NCBI RefSeq assembly: GCF_900115225.1
Contig: NZ_FOVR01000010.1
Location: 124,001-188,000, forward strand
Direction of reading: 5' to 3'
Length of the DNA stretch: 64,000 nucleotides
Origin: Cohaesibacter marisflavi
Lineage (GTDB): Bacteria > Pseudomonadota > Alphaproteobacteria > Rhizobiales > Cohaesibacteraceae
Position numbers and translations under genes: made by a program. The notes under the pieces were generated by a model. The model saw nothing but the letters and a program-made list of their open reading frames with translations, was not told where the DNA came from and ran no database searches. Positions 10,233-21,032 of this stretch are shown here, in pieces; positions within the stretch are counted from its first letter, which is position 1; each line of letters begins with the position of its first letter.

Positions 10233-10601
10233 CTAACCGTCAGCGCGCAGACCTTCAGCGATATTGCGGTTGATGTTGATCAGACTATCAACGGTCGCCG
10301 ATTTGGGGTCCGTCATGATCCGCAGCGTATGGTTGAATGTGAAGATGCCGAGATTCACCAGATTCTGGCGCAATTCCTTAGGCATTTCATGATCTTCGCT
10401 CATGAGTTCGCCTACAAAAAGGGTCCAGATCTTGCGGTTGAATGTCAGAGCTTCATCCAGTTGCGCAGGGGTGGTGTCTGCAGATTTTGTTTTCTGCAAC
10501 TTGGCAGCAGCCTTGATTAACAAAGCTGCTTCACGCTCCCTGGGGGACCCTGCATGAGAACTGGCGTCCTGATAAGCTCTAGCCGCTGAATGGTTGTACA
10601 T
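10233..10601 (-). CDS. flaF: Flagellar biosynthesis regulator FlaF
   Basis: 122 residues and all helical, matching FlaF (AARAYQDASS at the start; LTFNRKIWTLFVGELM and LRQNLVNLGIFTFNHTL in the middle). In Caulobacter FlaF promotes flagellin synthesis and secretion and opposes FlbT. Its start overlaps the end of flbT by 23 bases, so the two are co-translated. Both follow the flagellin genes on the minus strand, beyond the flagellin terminator. Confidence 0.93.
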   Translation of the reverse strand: MYNHSAARAYQDASSHAGSPREREAALLIKAAAKLQKTKSADTTPAQLDEALTFNRKIWTLFVGELMSEDHEMPKELRQNLVNLGIFTFNHTLRIMTDPKSATVDSLININRNIAEGLRADG

Positions 10602-10977
10602 TCCGAAGTAACTCCTCTTCGAACCTTATGAGAGCTTTTGCTTCTTTTAATGCAGGATAAAAGGAACCGGTTAATATTTTGTTATTTACGCTGTCAATTA
10701 TCGTTAACGCGCTGGGGGCAGCGTGTAAAAAATCATTTACCAAAGTGAAGTACATGTCCTTATGCTCGGCTAGATCTTGCGCCAGATACATAAGTTGTAT
10801 GCATAGATATATTCTTTTTGCAGGACTATTTGCCGTTTCGGACGTGAGGATGTCTTTTTCGCGTAATATTGGCGCCTGTCCATCGACAAAGAAGCGCGCA
10901 CGGTGGTCACCGTTTGTAATGACACTGTTTCCGATAATAATACGCTCGCCTGGGCGCAGTTCTATTTTAAGAGACAT
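10579..10977 (-). CDS. flbT: Flagellin mRNA regulator FlbT
   Basis: About 132 residues beginning MSLKIELRPGERIIIGNSVITNG, the FlbT signature. I chose the ATG at 10977 because GAGGA lies six bases upstream. An in-frame start six codons earlier has no better site. FlbT of Caulobacter binds the 5' leader of flagellin mRNA and triggers its decay when hook assembly is incomplete. The hairpin-rich leaders of the two flagellins next door are plausible targets. The downstream partner is flaF. Confidence 0.93.
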   Translation of the reverse strand: MSLKIELRPGERIIIGNSVITNGDHRARFFVDGQAPILREKDILTSETANSPAKRIYLCIQLMYLAQDLAEHKDMYFTLVNDFLHAAPSALTIIDSVNNKILTGSFYPALKEAKALIRFEEELLRNVQPFSG

Positions 10978-11236: not shown

Positions 11237-12643
11237 TTAAGCTCGTAGGAAGCTGGTAACTGCCTGATCGGCCTGCGATGCCAGAGACAAAGCTGTTGTA
11301 GACAGCGTCTGACGGGTCTGCAGAGCCAACATGTTAGCGCCTTCCTCGTTCGAATCTGCCAGAACCAGGTTGTCTGCACCGGTTTGCAGGGTGTTGATCA
11401 TTTCCTTGGTGTAATCCTTGCGGATCTGCACGGTGGAAAGGTTGGAACCGAAGGTTGATGCCTGTTTGCGCAGGGTAATCAAAGCGTCAGACAGGGCGTC
11501 AAGCTTGAGGTTGGACTCGTCGGTGTCCAGTGTCGTTGCATCGGTCAGAGCCAAACCGGAAGCGGTCAAGTCTGCGGACTGGATGGTCAGCTCGGACTTG
11601 GTCTCATCGCGTTTTTCGTTGAACGACACAGTCAGGTCATTGCTTGAACCGTCGATCAGGTTGATGCCGTTGTAGCTGGAGTCGCGCGCAAGCTCATCAA
11701 TCTGATCCATAATGCCGTTATACTGATCAACCAGCTCGGTGTTGGAAGCATCCTGTGTACCAGCAAAGTTCTTGATGGTCAGAACGTCGTTGGTACCGGA
11801 AGCCGCGCCGGTGAAGGTTGCATCGGTACCACCGGGATCCGTTGCGGTTAAGGGACCTGCACCATCCGGGTCGATGTCGGCAAATTGGCCAAAGCCAAGG
11901 CCTGCCCAAACGGAGGTGTCCTGAGCACCAGCAGAGGCTGCTGCGCCATCATCATGGGAGATTGACAGGGTTAGTTCTGCGTTGCCGTTGGCACTGATAT
12001 CCAGACGACCGTCTTCCGTGATCTTGGCAGTTGCAACACCAGAGGCGTTGATGTCATCGACCAGGTCTTTAATGGTGTAAGCCTGAGAACCCGTGGTGTC
12101 CAGATCACCATCTGTGAGGCTTTCCCCTGTATTGGAGAAATGTTCAACAAGATCGAAGGTTTTGGTTACGCCCGATTCAGACTTGGATTCAACGGTGAAG
12201 TTGGTGCCTGCGGCGAAGCCGATGTTTGCGCTGTTGAGGGCGATGCCTTCAGCACGTTCCTTGGCTGTTGATTCAGATGCGCCCGAGGTATTGATGCTTC
12301 GGTTGCCCTGAATGTTGGTGCCGGTGTTGGAATTGTTGTTTGACTGAGCCTGACGAACGGTTGCCTGTGCACTTTCCACCAGATCGGTAATCGCGGAGAT
12401 ACCATTGTCAGCAGCTTCGATCGTTTTGATCGAGTTTGAAATGCCGTCTAGCAGATTGCTAAGGTCGTTGGCGCGCGCGCCGAGGCTTTCAGAGGTAAAG
12501 AAGTTGGTTGGGTTATCCAACGCCGAGTTGACTTTTTTACCCGTTGCCAGGCGATTTTGCGTTGTTGACATCATGTCCGCGGTTTTTTGCAGGGACAAAA
12601 GGTTTGAACGCACGCCGGCTGAGAGAGTGATATCCGAAGACAT
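11237..12643 (-). CDS. Flagellin A
   Basis: 468 residues. Conserved flagellin ends are present: MSSDITLSAGVRSNLLSLQKT with RLATGKKVNSALDNPTNFF at the N-terminus, and ANMLALQTRQTLSTTALSLA with a terminal SFLRA at the C-terminus. The ATG at 12643 is preceded by AAAGG; eight extra in-frame codons lie upstream. It is a close tandem paralogue of flagellin B. The middle domain is almost identical in protein sequence, and a short Pro/Gly insert (DPDGAGPLTATDPGG) distinguishes it. Exported as filament subunit. It has its own terminator and leader hairpins. Confidence 0.96.
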   Translation of the reverse strand: MSSDITLSAGVRSNLLSLQKTADMMSTTQNRLATGKKVNSALDNPTNFFTSESLGARANDLSNLLDGISNSIKTIEAADNGISAITDLVESAQATVRQAQSNNNSNTGTNIQGNRSINTSGASESTAKERAEGIALNSANIGFAAGTNFTVESKSESGVTKTFDLVEHFSNTGESLTDGDLDTTGSQAYTIKDLVDDINASGVATAKITEDGRLDISANGNAELTLSISHDDGAAASAGAQDTSVWAGLGFGQFADIDPDGAGPLTATDPGGTDATFTGAASGTNDVLTIKNFAGTQDASNTELVDQYNGIMDQIDELARDSSYNGINLIDGSSNDLTVSFNEKRDETKSELTIQSADLTASGLALTDATTLDTDESNLKLDALSDALITLRKQASTFGSNLSTVQIRKDYTKEMINTLQTGADNLVLADSNEEGANMLALQTRQTLSTTALSLASQADQAVTSFLRA

Positions 12644-12648
12644 TGGGT

Positions 12649-12703
12649 TACCTTTCTGGGTACTCACACACAGATATTGTTTATTCAGCCTCCTTCTGAG
12701 GCT
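12649..12703 (-). promoter_or_regulatory. Flagellin A leader hairpins
   Basis: In the transcript, AGCCTC-AGAAG-GAGGCT forms a 6-base stem (12703-12687). TACC-CAGAAA-GGTA (12662-12649) then forms a mini-hairpin holding the AAAGG ribosome binding site. Flagellin B has the same kind of elements. They are candidate targets for FlbT or other post-transcriptional control. Confidence 0.5.
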
Positions 12704-12928: not shown

Positions 12929-14320
12929 TTAGCGCAGGAAGCTGAGAACTGCCTGGTCGGCCTGTGATGCCAGGGACAGAGCCGTGGTCGACAGAGACTG
13001 ACGGGTCTGCAGTGCGAGCATGTTTGCACCTTCCTCGTTGGTGTCAGCAAGAACCAGATCATCTGCACCAGTCTGCAGGGTATTGATCATGTCCTTGGTG
13101 AATTCCTCGCGGATCGTCACCGTGTTCAACTGAGAACCAAAGCTGGAAGCCTGTGTACGCAGCGTAGAAAGAGCTTCGGACAAAGCATCGAGCTGATTGT
13201 TTGAGTCTTCGGTGTTCAACGAAGTTGCATCAGCCAAGCCGAGGCCGGAAGAGCTCAGGTCTGCGGACTCGATGGTCAGCTCGGACTTGGTCTCATCACG
13301 TTTTTCGTTGAAGGCAACCGTCAGATCGCTGCCTGTTCCGTTGATCAGGTTGATACCATTGAAGCTGGAGTCACGAGCGAGTTCATCGATCTGATCCATG
13401 ATATCATTGAACTGTTCAACCAGCTCAGTATTGGAAGCATCCTGTGTACCAGCATAGTTCTTGATGGTCAGAACGTCGTCGGTACCAGAGGCGGCTCCAG
13501 TGAAGGTTGCGTCGGTGTCACCTGGATCGGTGGCGCCATCGCTACCCGGGTCGATGTCTGCGAAGGTGCCGAAGCCGAGGCCTGCCCAAACCGACGTATC
13601 CTGAGCACCAGCAGAAGCGGCGGCACCGTCATCGTGGGAGACGGTCAGGGTCAGTTCGGAGTTGCCGTTGGCGCTGATATCCAGACGACCGTCTTCCGTG
13701 ATCTTGGCGGTTGCAACGCCAGAAGCGTTGATGTCGTCGACAAGATCTTTGACGGTGTAAGCTTGGGAACCAGCAGTGTCGAGGTCGCCGTCAGTAAGGC
13801 TTTCACCAGTGTTGGAGAAATGCTCAATCAGGTCGAAGGTCTTGGTTACACCAGATTCGGACTTGGATTCGACGGTAAAGTTGGTGCCTGCAGCAAAGCC
13901 GATATTTGCACTGTTGAGGGCGATGCCTTCAGCGCGTTCCTTGGCAGTTGATTCAGATGCACCAGAGGTGTTGATACCTGCTGTGCCCTGAATGTTGGTG
14001 CCAGAGTTGGAAGCATTGGCTGCAAGAGCCTGGTTCACCGTGGACTGCGCACTTTCAACCAGATCGGTAATCGCAGAGATACCGTTATCAGCAGCTTCGA
14101 GAACCTTGGTAGCGTTACCGATGGAGTCCATCAGGTTGTTCAGCTCGTTTGCACGGCTGTTCAGGTTTGCCGAAGTGAAGAAGTTGGTTGGGTTGTCAAG
14201 CGCGGAGTTGACTTTTTTACCCGTTGACAGGCGTCCCTGAGTGGTCTGCATCATGTCTGCAGTGTTCTGCAGGGAGAGCAGGTTTGCGCGTACGCCGGCG
14301 GAGAGAGTGATATCGGACAT
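12929..14320 (-). CDS. Flagellin B
   Basis: 463 residues with N-terminal MSDITLSAGVRANLLSLQNT and C-terminal ANMLALQTRQSLSTTALSLA, ending SFLR. It is paralogous to flagellin A. Differences cluster in parts of D0/D1 and in a short acidic loop near residues 265-275, while the central domain from about 125 to 260 is nearly the same. At DNA level the shared centre differs mainly at third codon positions, so the copies are not fresh duplicates. An array of four small hairpins precedes the start. Confidence 0.96.
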   Translation of the reverse strand: MSDITLSAGVRANLLSLQNTADMMQTTQGRLSTGKKVNSALDNPTNFFTSANLNSRANELNNLMDSIGNATKVLEAADNGISAITDLVESAQSTVNQALAANASNSGTNIQGTAGINTSGASESTAKERAEGIALNSANIGFAAGTNFTVESKSESGVTKTFDLIEHFSNTGESLTDGDLDTAGSQAYTVKDLVDDINASGVATAKITEDGRLDISANGNSELTLTVSHDDGAAASAGAQDTSVWAGLGFGTFADIDPGSDGATDPGDTDATFTGAASGTDDVLTIKNYAGTQDASNTELVEQFNDIMDQIDELARDSSFNGINLINGTGSDLTVAFNEKRDETKSELTIESADLSSSGLGLADATSLNTEDSNNQLDALSEALSTLRTQASSFGSQLNTVTIREEFTKDMINTLQTGADDLVLADTNEEGANMLALQTRQSLSTTALSLASQADQAVLSFLR

Positions 14321-14328
14321 TTATCCAT

Positions 14329-14398
14329 AACCTTTCTGGTTAGTACTCGTCAGCCCTTCGTGGGCTTCGTCCTTCGTGGACAACGACCTTTCGCGGTC
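14329..14398 (-). promoter_or_regulatory. Four tandem mini-hairpins in the flagellin B leader
   Basis: Reading with the transcript: GACC-GCGAAA-GGTC (14398-14385), GTCC-ACGAA-GGAC (14381-14369), AGCCC-ACGAA-GGGCT (14366-14352), AACC-AGAAA-GGTT (14341-14329). The first three recur at 16-base spacing and share A-rich CGAA-type loops. The fourth contains the ribosome binding site AAAGG. The arrangement suggests a structured regulatory leader; the binding partner is inferred. Confidence 0.6.
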
Positions 14399-14399
14399 A

Positions 14400-14849
14400 T
14401 CCGAACAATGCGCGCCAAAACCAGAATCATTTGTAAAAATAGTTGGTTAACGGAAAGCAAGGTTAATAGAGAGTAAGCGTTTCTGTTCTATGGTTACTAA
14501 AATATGGATAGATAGAATTGCGGGTCGGGAAGCGCTTTGTGAACAATCAACTAGTGTTTTTCTGAATGTATCAAATTAGGAAATTTGGGAAGTCTCGTTG
14601 AAGGCCGGGTGAGGAAAACCGATGCATTTGGCACGTGAGTGTTTCAATTGCGCAGAGAAAATTTTTAAAAGTTATAATCGGCTGGTAATCTTTGGAAGAA
14701 AAGCGGCGTTGAAATGAGGGGATTTACGCGGCCCTGAGCATGATAGCCGAGGGGGAAAACGGGGTGGAAGGGCGCAAAAAACATGCCGCGTCATTCCTTC
14801 TCTTTTGAGCCTTCTTTATAAGGGCCATCGAAACTCGCTTCATATGAGG
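14400..14849. other. Gene-free stretch upstream of flagellin B
   Basis: About 450 AT-rich bases. The part next to the flagellin must hold its promoter. TTAA elements occur at 14446-14449 and 14462-14465 but with a 12-base gap, not a CtrA spacing, and I find no sigma-54 element. Nothing recognisable lies in 14520-14849. Confidence 0.4.
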
Positions 14850-15935
14850 CTAGAGATTGAGAAAATTTGCTTTCCCCAGCTTGAGAATGCTTTGCAAGAT
14901 TTCCTCTCTCACAACAGGTGCAGTGTCTCTCAAGGCCCGCTCGCTAGCGGCTTGAACTTTGCTCTGCCAATCCGCTTCCGTAGGAGATATGGGGGGCTCA
15001 AGCCCGAGCATTGAGCAGATGCCCTCTATTTTGGGGGTGTTTGAAGGCAGGCATACGAGCGGGGTTTGCAGGCTTGCGGCCGCAATCGTGTGGTGAAATC
15101 TCGCCGAAACCAGCAGGCTTGCGGAGCCGATCACATCTATCCACGTGTCAATGTCTTGCGCGTTCAGCAGTTCAAGCTTAGGAATCTCGCTTTTCATTTG
15201 CTCAAAATGCTTGAGGTCCTCAGGCGCAGGACTGCTCTTGGCTCCGGCCAGATAAACGGCTTTCCTATCGCCATCGACGAGAGGGTGAAGCGCTGCAGCC
15301 AATTCTCCTGCGAGCGCATTGTTAAGAGAGACACCACCGGACAATATGATCGGGCCATCTGGGCTGACGGTACGGTCATACCCATTGCGCGCGATAAAAA
15401 GGGGCAGGCAGTCAAAGCTTTGCACTGCATTGATACCCAGGCGTTTCAGGACTTGGGTGGAATGGACTTCACGGCTAGCTACCAGATCCAGATGCTTGAG
15501 GATTTCACCGTAAAACTGATCAACTTTTTCTGATGGCTCAAGGCTGCCGCTCGGATAGGCCGAATGATTGATGAGTGCGACTGTCTTGTTGGCATATTTT
15601 TTTGCGAAATACATCAGATAGAGCAGCTGCCATGGCCCCAGAGCATGCTCATGCAATGTTCCTTCGCCATTGCAGAGTACGAGATCTGCCTGTGTGATGG
15701 CCCGCACAATCGGCATATTGGCTGCGGTGAACCGTTTGGCGACCTCGCTGCTGTCAAAGTCCGGTATTTGTTGCGGCAACTCGGGAAGAGGTGTGTGTGT
15801 TTGCTCGACAGGCAGATAATTGACGTAGTAACCGCGCTCTACAAGAGTATCATAAATCTCGATTGACGTGCCAAAGCAGCCCCAGTGATATGAGTTGGCG
15901 GTGAAATTGAGTATTAAGCAGTTCTTTCGGAGCAA
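14850..15935 (-). CDS. Polysaccharide pyruvyl transferase family protein
   Basis: 361 residues. Features of the pyruvyl transferase family include the N-terminal ANSYHWGCFGTSIEI segment, LVLCNGEGTLHEH in the middle, and the LLVSARFHHTIAAASLQTPLVCLPS motif near 290 (the [ST]xRxHxxIxA signature). Such enzymes transfer pyruvate or related groups to surface sugars. The start is a TTG at 15935 with GGAGG five bases upstream. It lies beside flagellins and TPR glycosyltransferases, so a role in flagellar or surface glycan modification is plausible but inferred. Confidence 0.75.
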   Translation of the reverse strand: MLRKNCLILNFTANSYHWGCFGTSIEIYDTLVERGYYVNYLPVEQTHTPLPELPQQIPDFDSSEVAKRFTAANMPIVRAITQADLVLCNGEGTLHEHALGPWQLLYLMYFAKKYANKTVALINHSAYPSGSLEPSEKVDQFYGEILKHLDLVASREVHSTQVLKRLGINAVQSFDCLPLFIARNGYDRTVSPDGPIILSGGVSLNNALAGELAAALHPLVDGDRKAVYLAGAKSSPAPEDLKHFEQMKSEIPKLELLNAQDIDTWIDVIGSASLLVSARFHHTIAAASLQTPLVCLPSNTPKIEGICSMLGLEPPISPTEADWQSKVQAASERALRDTAPVVREEILQSILKLGKANFLNL

Positions 15936-15945
15936 GATCGCCTCC

Positions 15946-16260
15946 GCTGTGTGTGACTATTCTAGATGCAGCCGTTTTATGCTGTTTCGAATCTTCTAAC
16001 TTCCAAGCTTCTAAGCTCCAGAATCAGTTATAACCTGAATTACTATGGGATACAGCCCGCAATATCATTTCGTTGGTAGCAGAGAACGGGTTGGGAAGAT
16101 CGCTCAGGCATGCCTGTGTCCGAGAGCTATTGGGGTGTTTCAAGTGGTCATTCGTGTCACTCGGCAACCGACCGCTCAGATGCTTGACAGGCGGTGCTTG
16201 TGTGCTTCATTCTTTTTTAACTTCGCAACTTTTTTGGCATTTGGACTGCGCTTTGGCTTC
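15946..16260. other. Divergent intergenic region before the TPR-GT41 gene
   Basis: About 315 bases. The frame of the rightward gene is open from 16045, but the 72 extra codons are Cys/Phe-rich and unlike the family. No promoter or terminator can be called with confidence. Confidence 0.4.
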
Positions 16261-18420
16261 ATGACGAAACTTTCCGTACGGCAAACCCTCTCGCGCGCGA
16301 AGTCATTTGCCCGCAAAGGTGAAATTGATAAGGCCAGAGCCTTATATCAATCTATTATTGATAGCTATCCTTCCAACATCAGTGCCAAACGTGAGCTTGA
16401 AAAGCTTTCCCAAGCGCATTCTCAAGTTAAGGGAGGCGCTACTCTTTCGAATATGCCTGCGGATCAGGTTCTTTCTCTTGAGACTGAAGCAGATGCGCGC
16501 AAGACGCGCGATTTTACCAGCGCTCTTGTCAAGAATGTTCCGACATCTTTGGTTGCCTGGAGCCTGTTGGGGGATGCAAGCCGCAAGCTCGGTTTGCTGG
16601 ATGAGGCAGAAGGTGCCTATAGGATGGCGATCGAGCTCGATCCATCCAGCGCAGAGCTGCATAATAAGCTGGGAGTTGCCCTAAGAGAGCAGGGCAAGAT
16701 TGAAGAGGGTGTTCATTGCTATCAAAAGGCCCTCAGCCTGGATAGTCGCAATGCCGAGGCCTATGTGAATCTGGGTGTTGTCTTCAGAAGCCTGGGGCGG
16801 CTTGAAGAAGCAGAGCTATTCTACCGTAAAGCAATCGAGTTTCAGCCCGATTTATCGAACGCTTTTAATAATCTGGGCAATGTGCTGCGCCTTCAGGGGC
16901 GAACGCAAGAGGCCGTGGTCGCGTTCGAACAAGCGCTACAGAATGATCCGCTCTCTACGCTTGCTCTGAATAATCTTGGGTCCACCTACCGCACGCAAAT
17001 GATGTTCGATAAGGCAATCGAGGCTTTTGAACGGTCTTTGCAACTCAAGCCTGACCGTGCAGATACCCGAGCCGAGTTGATTTGGACTTGCGCCAATATT
17101 TGCGATTGGGATCGTTTGAAGCGATTGCTGCCGGATGTCGCCGATCTCGGTGTTGCTTCTGATCCCATTCAGCCATTCATGCTGATTTCTACCGATGGCA
17201 GTGCGGAGAACCAGTATCTGCGTGCGAAAAACTATGCGCGTAGTACCTTCAAACAGCAAACGGATCTGCGGCCACAGTGGGACGCCGGGGGCCGTATTCG
17301 GATCGGCTATTTTGGATCGGACTTTCACGATCATGCAACAATGCATCTGATGTCCGGTCTTCTGCGCTGCCATGACAGATCCCGGTTTGAGATTTTCGTT
17401 TACAGTTATGGCGTTCATTCCGGAGGTGAATGGCATGACTTTATTATCGAACATTGTGATCATTTTTTCGATATCAGCGCGCAAGCCGACCATGTCGTGC
17501 TGGAGCTGGTGCATTCCCATCAAATTGACATAGCTTTCGACCTCAAGGGATACACGAAAGATTCCAGGATCGATCTATTCCAATATGGGCTAGCGCCTAT
17601 TCAGATTAGTTATCTTGGCTATCCCGGAACCGTTGCTGCTGACTTCATGGACTATGTTATTGCAGATGAGGTTGTCATTTCAGAGCGGCAAAGAGCATTC
17701 TTTAGTGAGAAGGTCATTTATTTGCCCAACTGCTATCAGCCCAACGACAATCGCCGGGTGATTGCGCCAGACACCATGTCGCGCAGCGAAGCGGGGCTGC
17801 CTGAAAGTGGATTTGTCTTTTGCTGTTTCAACAACAGCTACAAGATCTCGTCTTCCGAGTTTGATATCTGGATGCGCTTGCTTGGTGATGTCGAAGGCAG
17901 CGTTCTATGGCTGTTGAGCACGAATGACTTTGCAAAGACCAATCTCAGAGCTGAGGCGAAGAAGCGCAATATCGATCTTGAGCGTATCGTATTTGCAGAT
18001 TGGGTTCCGCAAAATGAGCATCTGGCACGATTCCGGCTCGCAGACCTGTTTGTTGATACATTTATCTGCAACGCTCACACGACCGCCAGTGACGCGCTTT
18101 GGGCCGGTGTGCCTGTTGTAACCATGGTGGGAGACCAGTTCCCTGCAAGGGTTGCTGCGAGTTTGCTTCATGCGGTTGGACTAGAGGAATTGGTTACATC
18201 TTCTCAAGCTGACTATGAGCAACTGATCAAGACATTGTCTATTGAGCCCGACCGTCTGAGGGCTCTGCGAAAGCAATTGCAAGAGGATAGAATGACTTCG
18301 CCCCTGTTTGATACAGAGCGCTATACGCGCAATTTTGAAGAGGGGATTGCCCAAGCCTATGCCATCTACTCGAATGGAGAGAAAAGGCGCGATATTCGGG
18401 TGATCGAAGCAGAGCGTTGA
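16261..18420 (+). CDS. TPR-containing GT41 (OGT/SPINDLY-like) glycosyltransferase
   Basis: About 719 residues from the ATG at 16261. Residues about 1-330 are TPR repeats (e.g. SAELHNKLGVALREQGKIEEGVHCYQKAL). Residues about 345-700 form an O-GlcNAc-transferase-type catalytic region: RIRIGYFGSDFHDHATMHL, then DTFICNAHTTASDALWAGVP and GDQFPARVAASLLHAVGLEEL near the end, which is the nucleotide-sugar site. GT41 enzymes attach sugars to Ser/Thr of proteins recognised through the TPRs. The ribosome binding site is weak; the frame extends 72 codons upstream without family similarity. Its position beside the flagellins suggests flagellin as substrate. Confidence 0.85.
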   Translation: MTKLSVRQTLSRAKSFARKGEIDKARALYQSIIDSYPSNISAKRELEKLSQAHSQVKGGATLSNMPADQVLSLETEADARKTRDFTSALVKNVPTSLVAWSLLGDASRKLGLLDEAEGAYRMAIELDPSSAELHNKLGVALREQGKIEEGVHCYQKALSLDSRNAEAYVNLGVVFRSLGRLEEAELFYRKAIEFQPDLSNAFNNLGNVLRLQGRTQEAVVAFEQALQNDPLSTLALNNLGSTYRTQMMFDKAIEAFERSLQLKPDRADTRAELIWTCANICDWDRLKRLLPDVADLGVASDPIQPFMLISTDGSAENQYLRAKNYARSTFKQQTDLRPQWDAGGRIRIGYFGSDFHDHATMHLMSGLLRCHDRSRFEIFVYSYGVHSGGEWHDFIIEHCDHFFDISAQADHVVLELVHSHQIDIAFDLKGYTKDSRIDLFQYGLAPIQISYLGYPGTVAADFMDYVIADEVVISERQRAFFSEKVIYLPNCYQPNDNRRVIAPDTMSRSEAGLPESGFVFCCFNNSYKISSSEFDIWMRLLGDVEGSVLWLLSTNDFAKTNLRAEAKKRNIDLERIVFADWVPQNEHLARFRLADLFVDTFICNAHTTASDALWAGVPVVTMVGDQFPARVAASLLHAVGLEELVTSSQADYEQLIKTLSIEPDRLRALRKQLQEDRMTSPLFDTERYTRNFEEGIAQAYAIYSNGEKRRDIRVIEAER

Positions 18421-19067: not shown

Positions 19068-21032
19068 TCAGTTAGTCTGTCTAACGATGCTTCTATGGTC
19101 GCGATTCTGAAGCAGCCAATCAGACATGTCATCAAGATAGTCATGCACCGTTTTGCCCCACGGAATGGAACGACAAAACTGGTCTTCATACCAGGGTATG
19201 AATTGTTGCCCGAGATTCTCCGGCAGATGAACGAGATCCATCCGGTAGCTTTTTACGCCCATGGCGCCGGCCATATCTGCACTGCTGTTTGCCGGACCTG
19301 CAAACAGATCAAGGCAGGCTGTAAATGCTGCCGTGTTCAGTAGGTCGTCATTTATGTCCAAGCCGGGAATATGATAAATCGGCACATCGAACTCTTCGCG
19401 GAAGGCTTTGATTTCTTCTTCTGAGGCGGAATATTGCAAGTTGAAAAAATCGAAGCCAGGTAAGCGCAAGATCGGTAGTAAATCTTCTAGCGAGAGATAG
19501 TTTCGGTCGGTCAATTTGTTCTTCTTGATGCTAGACCATGCCAGACCGACTTTTGTATTGCCATTGTGCCGCATGAGCTCGTGCTCAAGGAAGGGCTTCA
19601 TAATCTCATGCGGTAACCGAATTGCCATTGTCTTGTCGATAAATGACCGCAGATTGGGTCTGAACAAGGTATAAAGACAGGTGAGGGGGATTTGATAGTC
19701 ATAGTTCCCGTCAACTTTCTCATATTTGTTCATCAGCCGCTTCTGTTGCTTGCCGGGGAAGAGGCCTATCGGTGCAGCAGCTTTGCCCGCTGCGTTGTCT
19801 CTACTGTCTTCCAGCTGAAAGGTTTCAACCTGCCTAGGCAGTTGCTGGATATCGATTTCGGGCAAAATGACCCTGAGCAAGTCGAGGGTCTTCTTTCTGG
19901 ACAAGAGGGTTGTTTGCACTTCTGAGGGGATTTCTTTCATCAGTTGGACATGCTTGAAAACATCTCCGATCCCCTGATCAGACCATACCAAAAGCCGTTT
20001 TCCTTCGATGGATTCTCCTTTCCAATGAGGAACATCAAGATCAAGGACCGGGTTTTGCGTCTGTATTTCGAAACGGGCATATTCGTCTTTTGCGGCCTGA
20101 GCAATGTTGCCAAGGTTTTTCTGTACGAGATTTCTCTCGTATTTCAGCCCGGCCTGCTCGGGTAACGCCCTGATGCTCTTGTTGAGATCCTCAAGGGCTT
20201 CTTCGAATTTTCCAAGAAACATGCGCGCTCTACCACGTCCTGCTCTGAGGTGAGCGTCCTCTGGGAATCTGGCTAAGGCCCTGCTTAGAAAAGTTTCCTC
20301 TCGATCAAAGAGTGCGAGATGATCAAGGCTTGCGCCTATCATTCGTCTGGCAGCGGGAATCTCCAGTGATGCATTTGCGTGCTTTTCAGAGTAGGCAACA
20401 ATGTCCTCATAAGCCTGATTGCGCAGTCGGTCCTCAAGCCAGCGGATATGTGCTTCGGGGATGACCGGTGTCGCTTGCATGGCGCGCTTGAAACATAGGA
20501 TTGCTGCATTTTCCAGACCTGCCGCAGAAAAAATGTCTCCAACCAGAGCACAGAGCTGCAGGTCTTCAGGAAAGGACTGAAGGGCGTTTTTTCCCAATGT
20601 TACGAGAGGGGTAAAGGCTGCCGGAGACGCATTTCCGGTTTGGCGGGATTCCTGTGCGGTCGCAGCGTACATGCAGGCGATCAAGTCCGCCCATTTTTGA
20701 GAATTGGTAGGAGCTTTGGTGACCGCATTCTGGAAAAATTCAACGGCGTCGTTGAACAGCTTGGCACGCTGAAGTGTCCGTCCGGTCTTGGACTGCAGCT
20801 CAATGTCTTCGGGATTCTTTACGGCCAGATCGACCATTGTTGCCGATGCTTCATGGGGTTTGCCGAGCGTAAAAAAGATTTCTGCCAACAATTCTCTTGC
20901 TGGCAGGAAATCCGGATAGGTTTGAATTTGGTTATGGCAGATTTCTGCTGCCTGACTATAGCTGGCAGCGTTAAAAAGCTTTTGTGCCGCTTTCAACTCT
21001 TTTTCGGCGCGCTTTTTATTCGCTCTATTCAT
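19068..21032 (-). CDS. TPR protein with GT9-like C-terminal domain
   Basis: 654 residues. The N-terminal half (about 1-310) is built of TPR-like repeats. From about 335 comes WKGESIEGKRLLVWSDQGIGDVFKHVQL, the segment that joins TPRs to a heptosyltransferase-like (GT9/GT-B) domain in many bacterial proteins, and later KVGLAWSS and DLFAGPANSSADMAGAMGVKSY. It begins 18 bases after the flgN-like gene and so is probably part of the flgI operon. Caulobacter FlmG, a TPR glycosyltransferase for flagellin, has a comparable layout. Whether it is catalytic or only a flagellin-binding adaptor cannot be decided here. Confidence 0.7.
   Translation of the reverse strand: MNRANKKRAEKELKAAQKLFNAASYSQAAEICHNQIQTYPDFLPARELLAEIFFTLGKPHEASATMVDLAVKNPEDIELQSKTGRTLQRAKLFNDAVEFFQNAVTKAPTNSQKWADLIACMYAATAQESRQTGNASPAAFTPLVTLGKNALQSFPEDLQLCALVGDIFSAAGLENAAILCFKRAMQATPVIPEAHIRWLEDRLRNQAYEDIVAYSEKHANASLEIPAARRMIGASLDHLALFDREETFLSRALARFPEDAHLRAGRGRARMFLGKFEEALEDLNKSIRALPEQAGLKYERNLVQKNLGNIAQAAKDEYARFEIQTQNPVLDLDVPHWKGESIEGKRLLVWSDQGIGDVFKHVQLMKEIPSEVQTTLLSRKKTLDLLRVILPEIDIQQLPRQVETFQLEDSRDNAAGKAAAPIGLFPGKQQKRLMNKYEKVDGNYDYQIPLTCLYTLFRPNLRSFIDKTMAIRLPHEIMKPFLEHELMRHNGNTKVGLAWSSIKKNKLTDRNYLSLEDLLPILRLPGFDFFNLQYSASEEEIKAFREEFDVPIYHIPGLDINDDLLNTAAFTACLDLFAGPANSSADMAGAMGVKSYRMDLVHLPENLGQQFIPWYEDQFCRSIPWGKTVHDYLDDMSDWLLQNRDHRSIVRQTN

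Follow-up and report, generated by a model that had tools for sequence, protein, structure and literature searches.

Four small hairpins stand in a row in front of a flagellin gene; are they a conserved structure of the mRNA, and if so, what reads them? The question is raised by the leader of flagellin B in the 64-kb stretch of DNA analysed here (hereafter the window), where a sequence-only reading had described four tandem mini-hairpins at 14329-14398. We found all four in place on the minus strand:

14385..14398, minus strand: H1, GACC-GCGAAA-GGTC (from sequence, fold and congeners)
14369..14381, minus strand: H2, GTCC-ACGAA-GGAC, with an ANRAN pentaloop (from sequence, fold and congeners)
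14353..14365, minus strand: H3, GCCC-ACGAA-GGGC (from sequence, fold and congeners)
14328..14342, minus strand: H4, TAACC-AGAAA-GGTTA around the AAAGG ribosome site (from sequence and fold)
12929..14320, minus strand: flagellin B gene, 463 aa, start ATG at 14320 (Pfam Flagellin_N and Flagellin_C)

Geometry and rarity of the array

The regular spacing noted at the outset was confirmed: the GG-to-GG distances are 16, 16 and 24 nt (H1-H2, H2-H3 and H3-H4), and the 5' arms of H1 and H2 lie 17 nt apart because the H1 loop has 6 nt. The core of H4, AACC-AGAAA-GGTT (14341-14329), encloses the AAAGG ribosome site as had been claimed, and is extended by a T-A pair (14342/14328). Both the MFE and the centroid folds of the leader contain all four hairpins, and AAAGG is predicted to be paired within H4. 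The stability of the leader as a whole is ordinary (z -0.92; 38 of 200 shuffles fold equally well or better), and global fold stability was hence discarded as evidence. The array is unusual in its arrangement, not in its overall stability. When disjoint hairpins with 4-bp stems and 5-6-nt loops were counted per 75-nt stretch of both strands, this was the only site in the window with four of them, showing up on either strand because the stems are symmetric; when the leader was shuffled 20000 times with its dinucleotides preserved, four hairpins never appeared, and three did so 14 times. A search of the window against Rfam 15 gave no match at or above the gathering cut-off.

Two further elements were noticed around the array. 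An out-of-frame ATG (14326-14328, minus strand), 8 nt ahead of the flagellin B start, lies at the end of the ribosome-site hairpin (TTATGGATAAATG); it is retained as TTATGGGGAAATG in several congeners and is in frame in one (G013). Upstream of the leader, at 14445-14466 (minus strand), two TTAACC repeats, which may be CtrA-like half-sites, are followed by a conserved TTTTAC..ATGATTC block, and TTAACC precedes many flagellins across the order.

Flagellin B leaders of the genus

Flagellin B leaders were collected from 17 of the 18 genomes of the genus, our own included; the remaining genome (G009) gave no flagellin match. H1 and the ribosome-site hairpin are present in all 17, and the number of hairpins is two in 5, three in 9 and four in 3 congeners. 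The H1 stem, GACC/GGTC, is identical throughout and thus contributes no covariation, while its loop is AAGGAC, ACGGAC or AAGGAT in eight congeners, literally CANGGANG with the closing pair included, and ACGAAC, ACGAAT or GCGAAA in nine. H2, present in 12 and absent in 5 congeners, is paired in every version of its stem, namely, GTCC/GGAC (8), GATCC/GGATC (2), GCCC/GGGC (1) and GGCC/GGCC (1); a raw MAFFT alignment, which misplaced the end of H2, was left out of the pair counts. H1 and H2 follow each other at a pitch of 16 nt in 10 of 12 H2-bearing congeners and at 17 and 20 nt in the other two; the last pitch stays at 22-24 nt in all 17, independent of the hairpin number. H3 was seen only in the window species and two congeners (G002, leader L034; G013, leader L043), and is, judging from its letters, probably a copy of H2, duplicated as a 16-nt unit, in which one pair differs by a compensatory change (T-A to C-G). 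The suggestion that such an array serves for counting did not fare well: with the hairpin number so variable among the congeners, avidity or tuning is likelier.

A near-constant loop on variable stems

In these leaders, where the motif had been noticed ahead of being counted, ANRAN pentaloop hairpins with 4-bp stems numbered 41 against 1.4 expected in a first set of 30 leaders (mostly congeners), and 51 against 3.4 expected in an order set of 108. Hairpins with the reverse-complement loop, NTYNT, numbered 0 against 0.6 and 6 against 2.8, respectively. By a strict count, at least one ANRAN pentaloop hairpin is carried by 29 of the 30 leaders of the first set and by 47 of the 108 of the order set. 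The loop is near-constant while the stems vary freely, which points to a protein as reader.

In a sample of the class, ANRAN-bearing leaders made up 11 of the 47 from FlbT-bearing genomes (1.6 expected), a figure to be read with the fact that three genomes (G222, G302 and G123) give 27 of the 47 and that one of the 47 belongs to a further flagellin of our own genome. The corresponding figures were 5 of 13 for genomes with CsrA and no FlbT (0.6 expected; leader L197, whose start was not found, omitted) and 1 of 10 for those with neither (0.4 expected). The motif is therefore not specific to FlbT bearers. Leaders of similar layout were noticed ahead of flagellins in CsrA-bearing, FlbT-lacking Alphaproteobacteria (L199, L202, L204, L208 and L209); L199, for example, has GGC-AGGAT-GCC and a ribosome-site hairpin TTCC-AGGAA-GGAA. 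Three leaders of FlbT-bearing genomes outside the order (L218, L221 and L224) have loops such as C-AAAAC-G and C-ACAAC-G (e.g., GGGC-AAAAC-GCCC), which on their sequences appear to be drift from AGRAN.

Compensatory changes in the stems

A covariation analysis of related leaders had been proposed as a check on the array, and compensatory changes were indeed found in relatives by three kinds of test: one anchored on the loop, one on the ribosome site and one on an alignment of 29 leaders. The first two do not select on stems and include related genomes. They cover the first set and an order set that equals that of the loop count plus a few additional loci; the order set is nearly all Hyphomicrobiales, with at least two leaders (L122 and L128) from Rhodospirillales.

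With CAGRANG as the anchor at -100..-18, three further outer pairs were formed in 34 of 46 distinct sites against 13.6 expected from permuted flanks (0/2000), and at -300..-110 in 0 of 22 against 0.8. Three pairs were found around the control loops CBGRANG in 2 of 17 sites (1.1 expected), CAGYNNG in 3 of 18 (1.4) and the reverse complement in 0 of 8 (0.7); the scrambled-loop control and the set with neither FlbT nor CsrA gave one site each, too few for use. CAHRANG, which includes the ACGAA- and AAGAA-type loops, was paired in 14 of 24 sites against 5.0 (0/2000).

Of 149 leaders, 99 have CC..AGRA..GG at the ribosome site. Over the whole set, this hairpin has a Watson-Crick first outer pair at 49 of 84 distinct sites against 29.2 expected (0/2000), a count in which overlapping registers of one site may enter twice, and the third is weakly over chance (28 against 21.5; 120/2000). 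The register control, AGRA..GG without the CC arm at largely the same sites, gave 8 of 57 against 11.0. When the first set is taken by itself, the first outer pair forms no more often than expected by chance (10 of 18 against 9.5; 939/2000), but two outer pairs together are found in 10 against 4.3 (0/2000).

The alignment test concerns the two-hairpin form, which is found in the leader of flagellin A:

12688..12702, minus strand: upstream hairpin of the flagellin A leader, GCCTC-AGAAG-GAGGC
12649..12662, minus strand: ribosome-site hairpin of the flagellin A leader, TACC-CAGAAA-GGTA
11237..12643, minus strand: flagellin A gene, 468 aa

Two-sided changes occur in 8 of 10 pairs, 6 of 6 in the upstream hairpin and 2 of 4 in the ribosome-site hairpin; the 29 leaders were hand-picked among those with a CAGRA-type upstream hairpin, so that the test is biased towards that hairpin. 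The alignment holds 36 cells with two-sided changes; 0 of 500 shuffles equal it on any measure, slid structures score below the real one on every measure, and G-U pairs occur. RNAalifold alone predicts the upstream hairpin from this alignment, with 5 of 5 pairs covarying, and does not predict the ribosome-site hairpin. AAGGAGG in the upstream hairpin of flagellin A, also considered as a hidden decoy ribosome site, was rejected, as it is not conserved in relatives.

Where the two-hairpin form is found

A covariance model (R1) built on the two-hairpin form detected the flagellin A leader in its own genome with an E value of 5.8e-16, the next match having 0.005. This search did not pick up the flagellin B leader, and R1 thus covers the two-hairpin form only. 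There were 19 further matches in the genome (E 0.005 to 10), 11 of which were inspected as loci, and none of these lies ahead of a flagellin. The best of the non-flagellin matches (G000:C25:221918-221964, L281; E 0.005) adjoins an ORF that by eye resembles a response regulator, and is probably due to chance.

Among 81 genomes of the order, 37 were matched at E <=0.1. For all of the 13 strongest matches (E <=2.6e-4), a flagellin start follows within about 8 nt; 12 of these loci were read, one at a contig end (L301) being placed from its length, and the second match in G018 was placed by coordinates. At least four of the 12 genomes with strong matches (G000, G060, G031 and G018) had fed the model. 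Among the weaker loci (L303-L320), 6 of 18 adjoin a flagellin start and 12 do not. FlbT is encoded in 12 of the 12 genomes with strong matches against 49 of the 81 overall, a co-occurrence confounded by flagellation.

A probable translational operator and its candidate reader

The hairpins are, with near certainty, a conserved RNA structure. The sequence-only reading had seen in them a multi-site RNA platform, and this is well supported by the compensatory changes, the fixed loop motif and the strong model matches found only at flagellin starts. The leader would in all likelihood be a protein-bound translational operator. As for the protein, FlbT had been said to be encoded some 3 kb from the flagellin B leader, and the genes of both FlbT and FlaF were found there:

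10579..10977, minus strand: flbT, candidate hairpin reader (PF07378, E 1.2e-41), its start inferred at MSLKIEL
10233..10601, minus strand: flaF (PF07309, E 9.7e-34)

FlbT is thus encoded near the flagellins, as in a FlbT-regulated leader. It is reported to bind the 5' UTR of flagellin in Caulobacter (Anderson and Gober 2000, via PMC4347634 and PMC3930126), where flbT and flaF also lie near the flagellins and a flagellin leader is the target. The accessible part of the reviews gives no binding motif and leaves the mechanism unsettled (PMC4347634; also PMC3930126), whereas a concrete, conserved hairpin motif is found here. This gene context and the published interaction with leaders make FlbT the probable reader of the hairpins.

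As a whole, therefore, we favour a multi-hairpin translational operator, real, conserved and without a match in Rfam, which looks like a CsrA operator, probably works like one and is probably read by FlbT. Each of the repeated hairpins displays a short loop rich in A, in most cases A-N-R-A-N between a closing C and G, and the last contains the ribosome site. A protein that binds RNA, most likely FlbT, would grip an upstream hairpin and the ribosome-site hairpin jointly and so control initiation, most likely by blocking it as long as the hook is unfinished. Further hairpins, gained on the upstream side at intervals of 16 nt, would raise the local avidity or bind more protein. We infer that the binding of FlbT represses and that the hairpin copy number tunes avidity. 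FlbT together with the flagellin FljJ represses translation in Caulobacter until FljJ is secreted (PMC7591256). FlbT is also described as promoting the decay of flagellin mRNA in Caulobacter and as an activator in Brucella (PMC4347634), so that the direction of control could be either.

Short stems near a ribosome site can stabilise an mRNA or keep the site accessible. Passive hairpins of this kind, serving a highly expressed mRNA with no dedicated reader, are an unlikely alternative, consistent as they are with stem sequences that vary freely. A stabiliser does not need a near-fixed loop, however, and ANRAN is enriched here while its reverse complement is much less so; loops of other kinds at these positions have no stems, and the ribosome site itself is paired. 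A temperature-responsive switch, in which a weak ribosome-site hairpin melts on warming, would suit H4, a short and A-rich hairpin closing over the ribosome site, but would leave unexplained the upstream hairpins with like loops and the covariation of both, and we regard it as very improbable. We give equally little weight to DNA operator palindromes for a transcription factor: the stems are palindromic and a promoter region is probably near, but the loops are strand-asymmetric (the 51 ANRAN and 6 NTYNT loops in the 108 leaders), G-U pairs occur and the last hairpin lies on the ribosome site. CsrA itself as the reader, as in Campylobacter and Bacillus, is the least probable of all and largely refuted here, barring a gene in a missing part of the assembly that was also missed in relatives: the loop and the two-hairpin layout match CsrA operators, and CsrA-bearing, FlbT-lacking Alphaproteobacteria have like hairpins (5 of 13 leaders; three pairs in 6 of 10 sites against 1.7), but PF02599 was found in 0 of 61 genomes, our own and 60 relatives.

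The likeness of the favoured operator to those of CsrA is nonetheless close. In the proven flaA operator of Campylobacter jejuni (PMC4894983, as far as the text was available), the flagellin leader folds into two stem-loops that carry ANGGA in their loops; the second covers the ribosome site, and the hairpins are supported by compensatory changes and likened to CANGGANG hexaloops. The leader here likewise ends in a hairpin over the ribosome site with compensatory changes. The flaA sites are 21 nt apart, 18 nt being called optimal for a CsrA dimer, compared with 16 and 22-24 nt here; furthermore, the present leaders have up to four hairpins and a loop relaxed to A-N-R-A-N, often a pentaloop, in genomes where CsrA was not found. 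ANGGA is absent from the loops in the window (GCGAAA, ACGAA, ACGAA and AGAAA) and occurs literally in H1 of the eight congeners above. With no CsrA found and no GGA in the loops of the window, the leader is not classed as a CsrA operator. Sponge RNAs of the RsmZ/CsrB type also have stem-loops in series, whose GGA-type motifs serve several dimers (PMC4894983, again from the part available), whereas the array here lies in cis, within the mRNA under control, and its last hairpin sits on the ribosome site of that mRNA.

The consulted part of the open literature on FlbT contains no hairpin motif, and an earlier account of the hairpins in single leaders may exist. Given a review that, in its accessible part, offers neither a binding motif nor a settled mechanism (PMC4347634), a conserved hairpin whose loop is defined allows a direct test of how FlbT acts, and in bacteria without detected CsrA such a test is not confounded by CsrA.

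FlbT and CsrA across the Alphaproteobacteria

Among 289 Alphaproteobacteria, FlbT was found in 106 and CsrA in 62 (61 over the cut-off). The two occur together in five genomes (G132, G209, G236, G307 and G312) against 22.7 expected (Fisher p 1.7e-8, uncorrected for relatedness), which suggests one checkpoint with two alternative readers.

A distant relationship of the two proteins is a possibility that profiles suggest and structure searches do not. In hhalign, FlbT 4-41 aligned to CsrA 2-45 with P 1.3e-4, a probability of 54% and a score of 27.0, compared with 25.1 for the best of 300 column shuffles; broader profiles gave P 1.4e-4 and a score of 25.9 against 19.3 for the best shuffle (0/300 reach it). 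Among the 13 Pfam families listed at E <=10 for a set of 23 FlbT proteins, CsrA (PF02599) does not appear; in this comparison HMMER filters drop most matches above about 0.1. A PDB sequence search with FlbT gave no convincing match, the best being other proteins (E 0.48 and 0.062). AF2 models of FlbT (mean pLDDT 90-91) have five short strands, followed by helices in the full model. In Foldseek, neither the full model nor the N-terminal 48 residues matched anything at E 0.001, and no CsrA was among the best 50 matches of each. CsrA is a swapped dimer, which may hide a fold match. We hold only tentatively, as a rather unlikely reading, that FlbT is related to CsrA, though highly diverged from it, and has taken over an ancient operator of flagellin genes, of which the present array would be an expanded version. 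On this view, Alphaproteobacteria mostly have either CsrA or FlbT, and both would read tandem A-N-R-A hairpins that end on the ribosome site.

Other genes around the flagellins

Beside the flagellins, we also noticed a protein of the polysaccharide pyruvyl transferase family (14850-15935, minus strand; PF04230) and two proteins that by eye look rich in TPR (16045-18420, plus strand; 19068-21032, minus strand); these neighbours might possibly concern flagellin glycosylation. Outside the window, the same genome has a second FlbT and further flagellin-like genes (G000:C19:181499-181870 and 237416-241130), and the leader of one further flagellin (L193) contains GACGC-AAGGAAAA-GCGTC, with AAGGA again in the loop.
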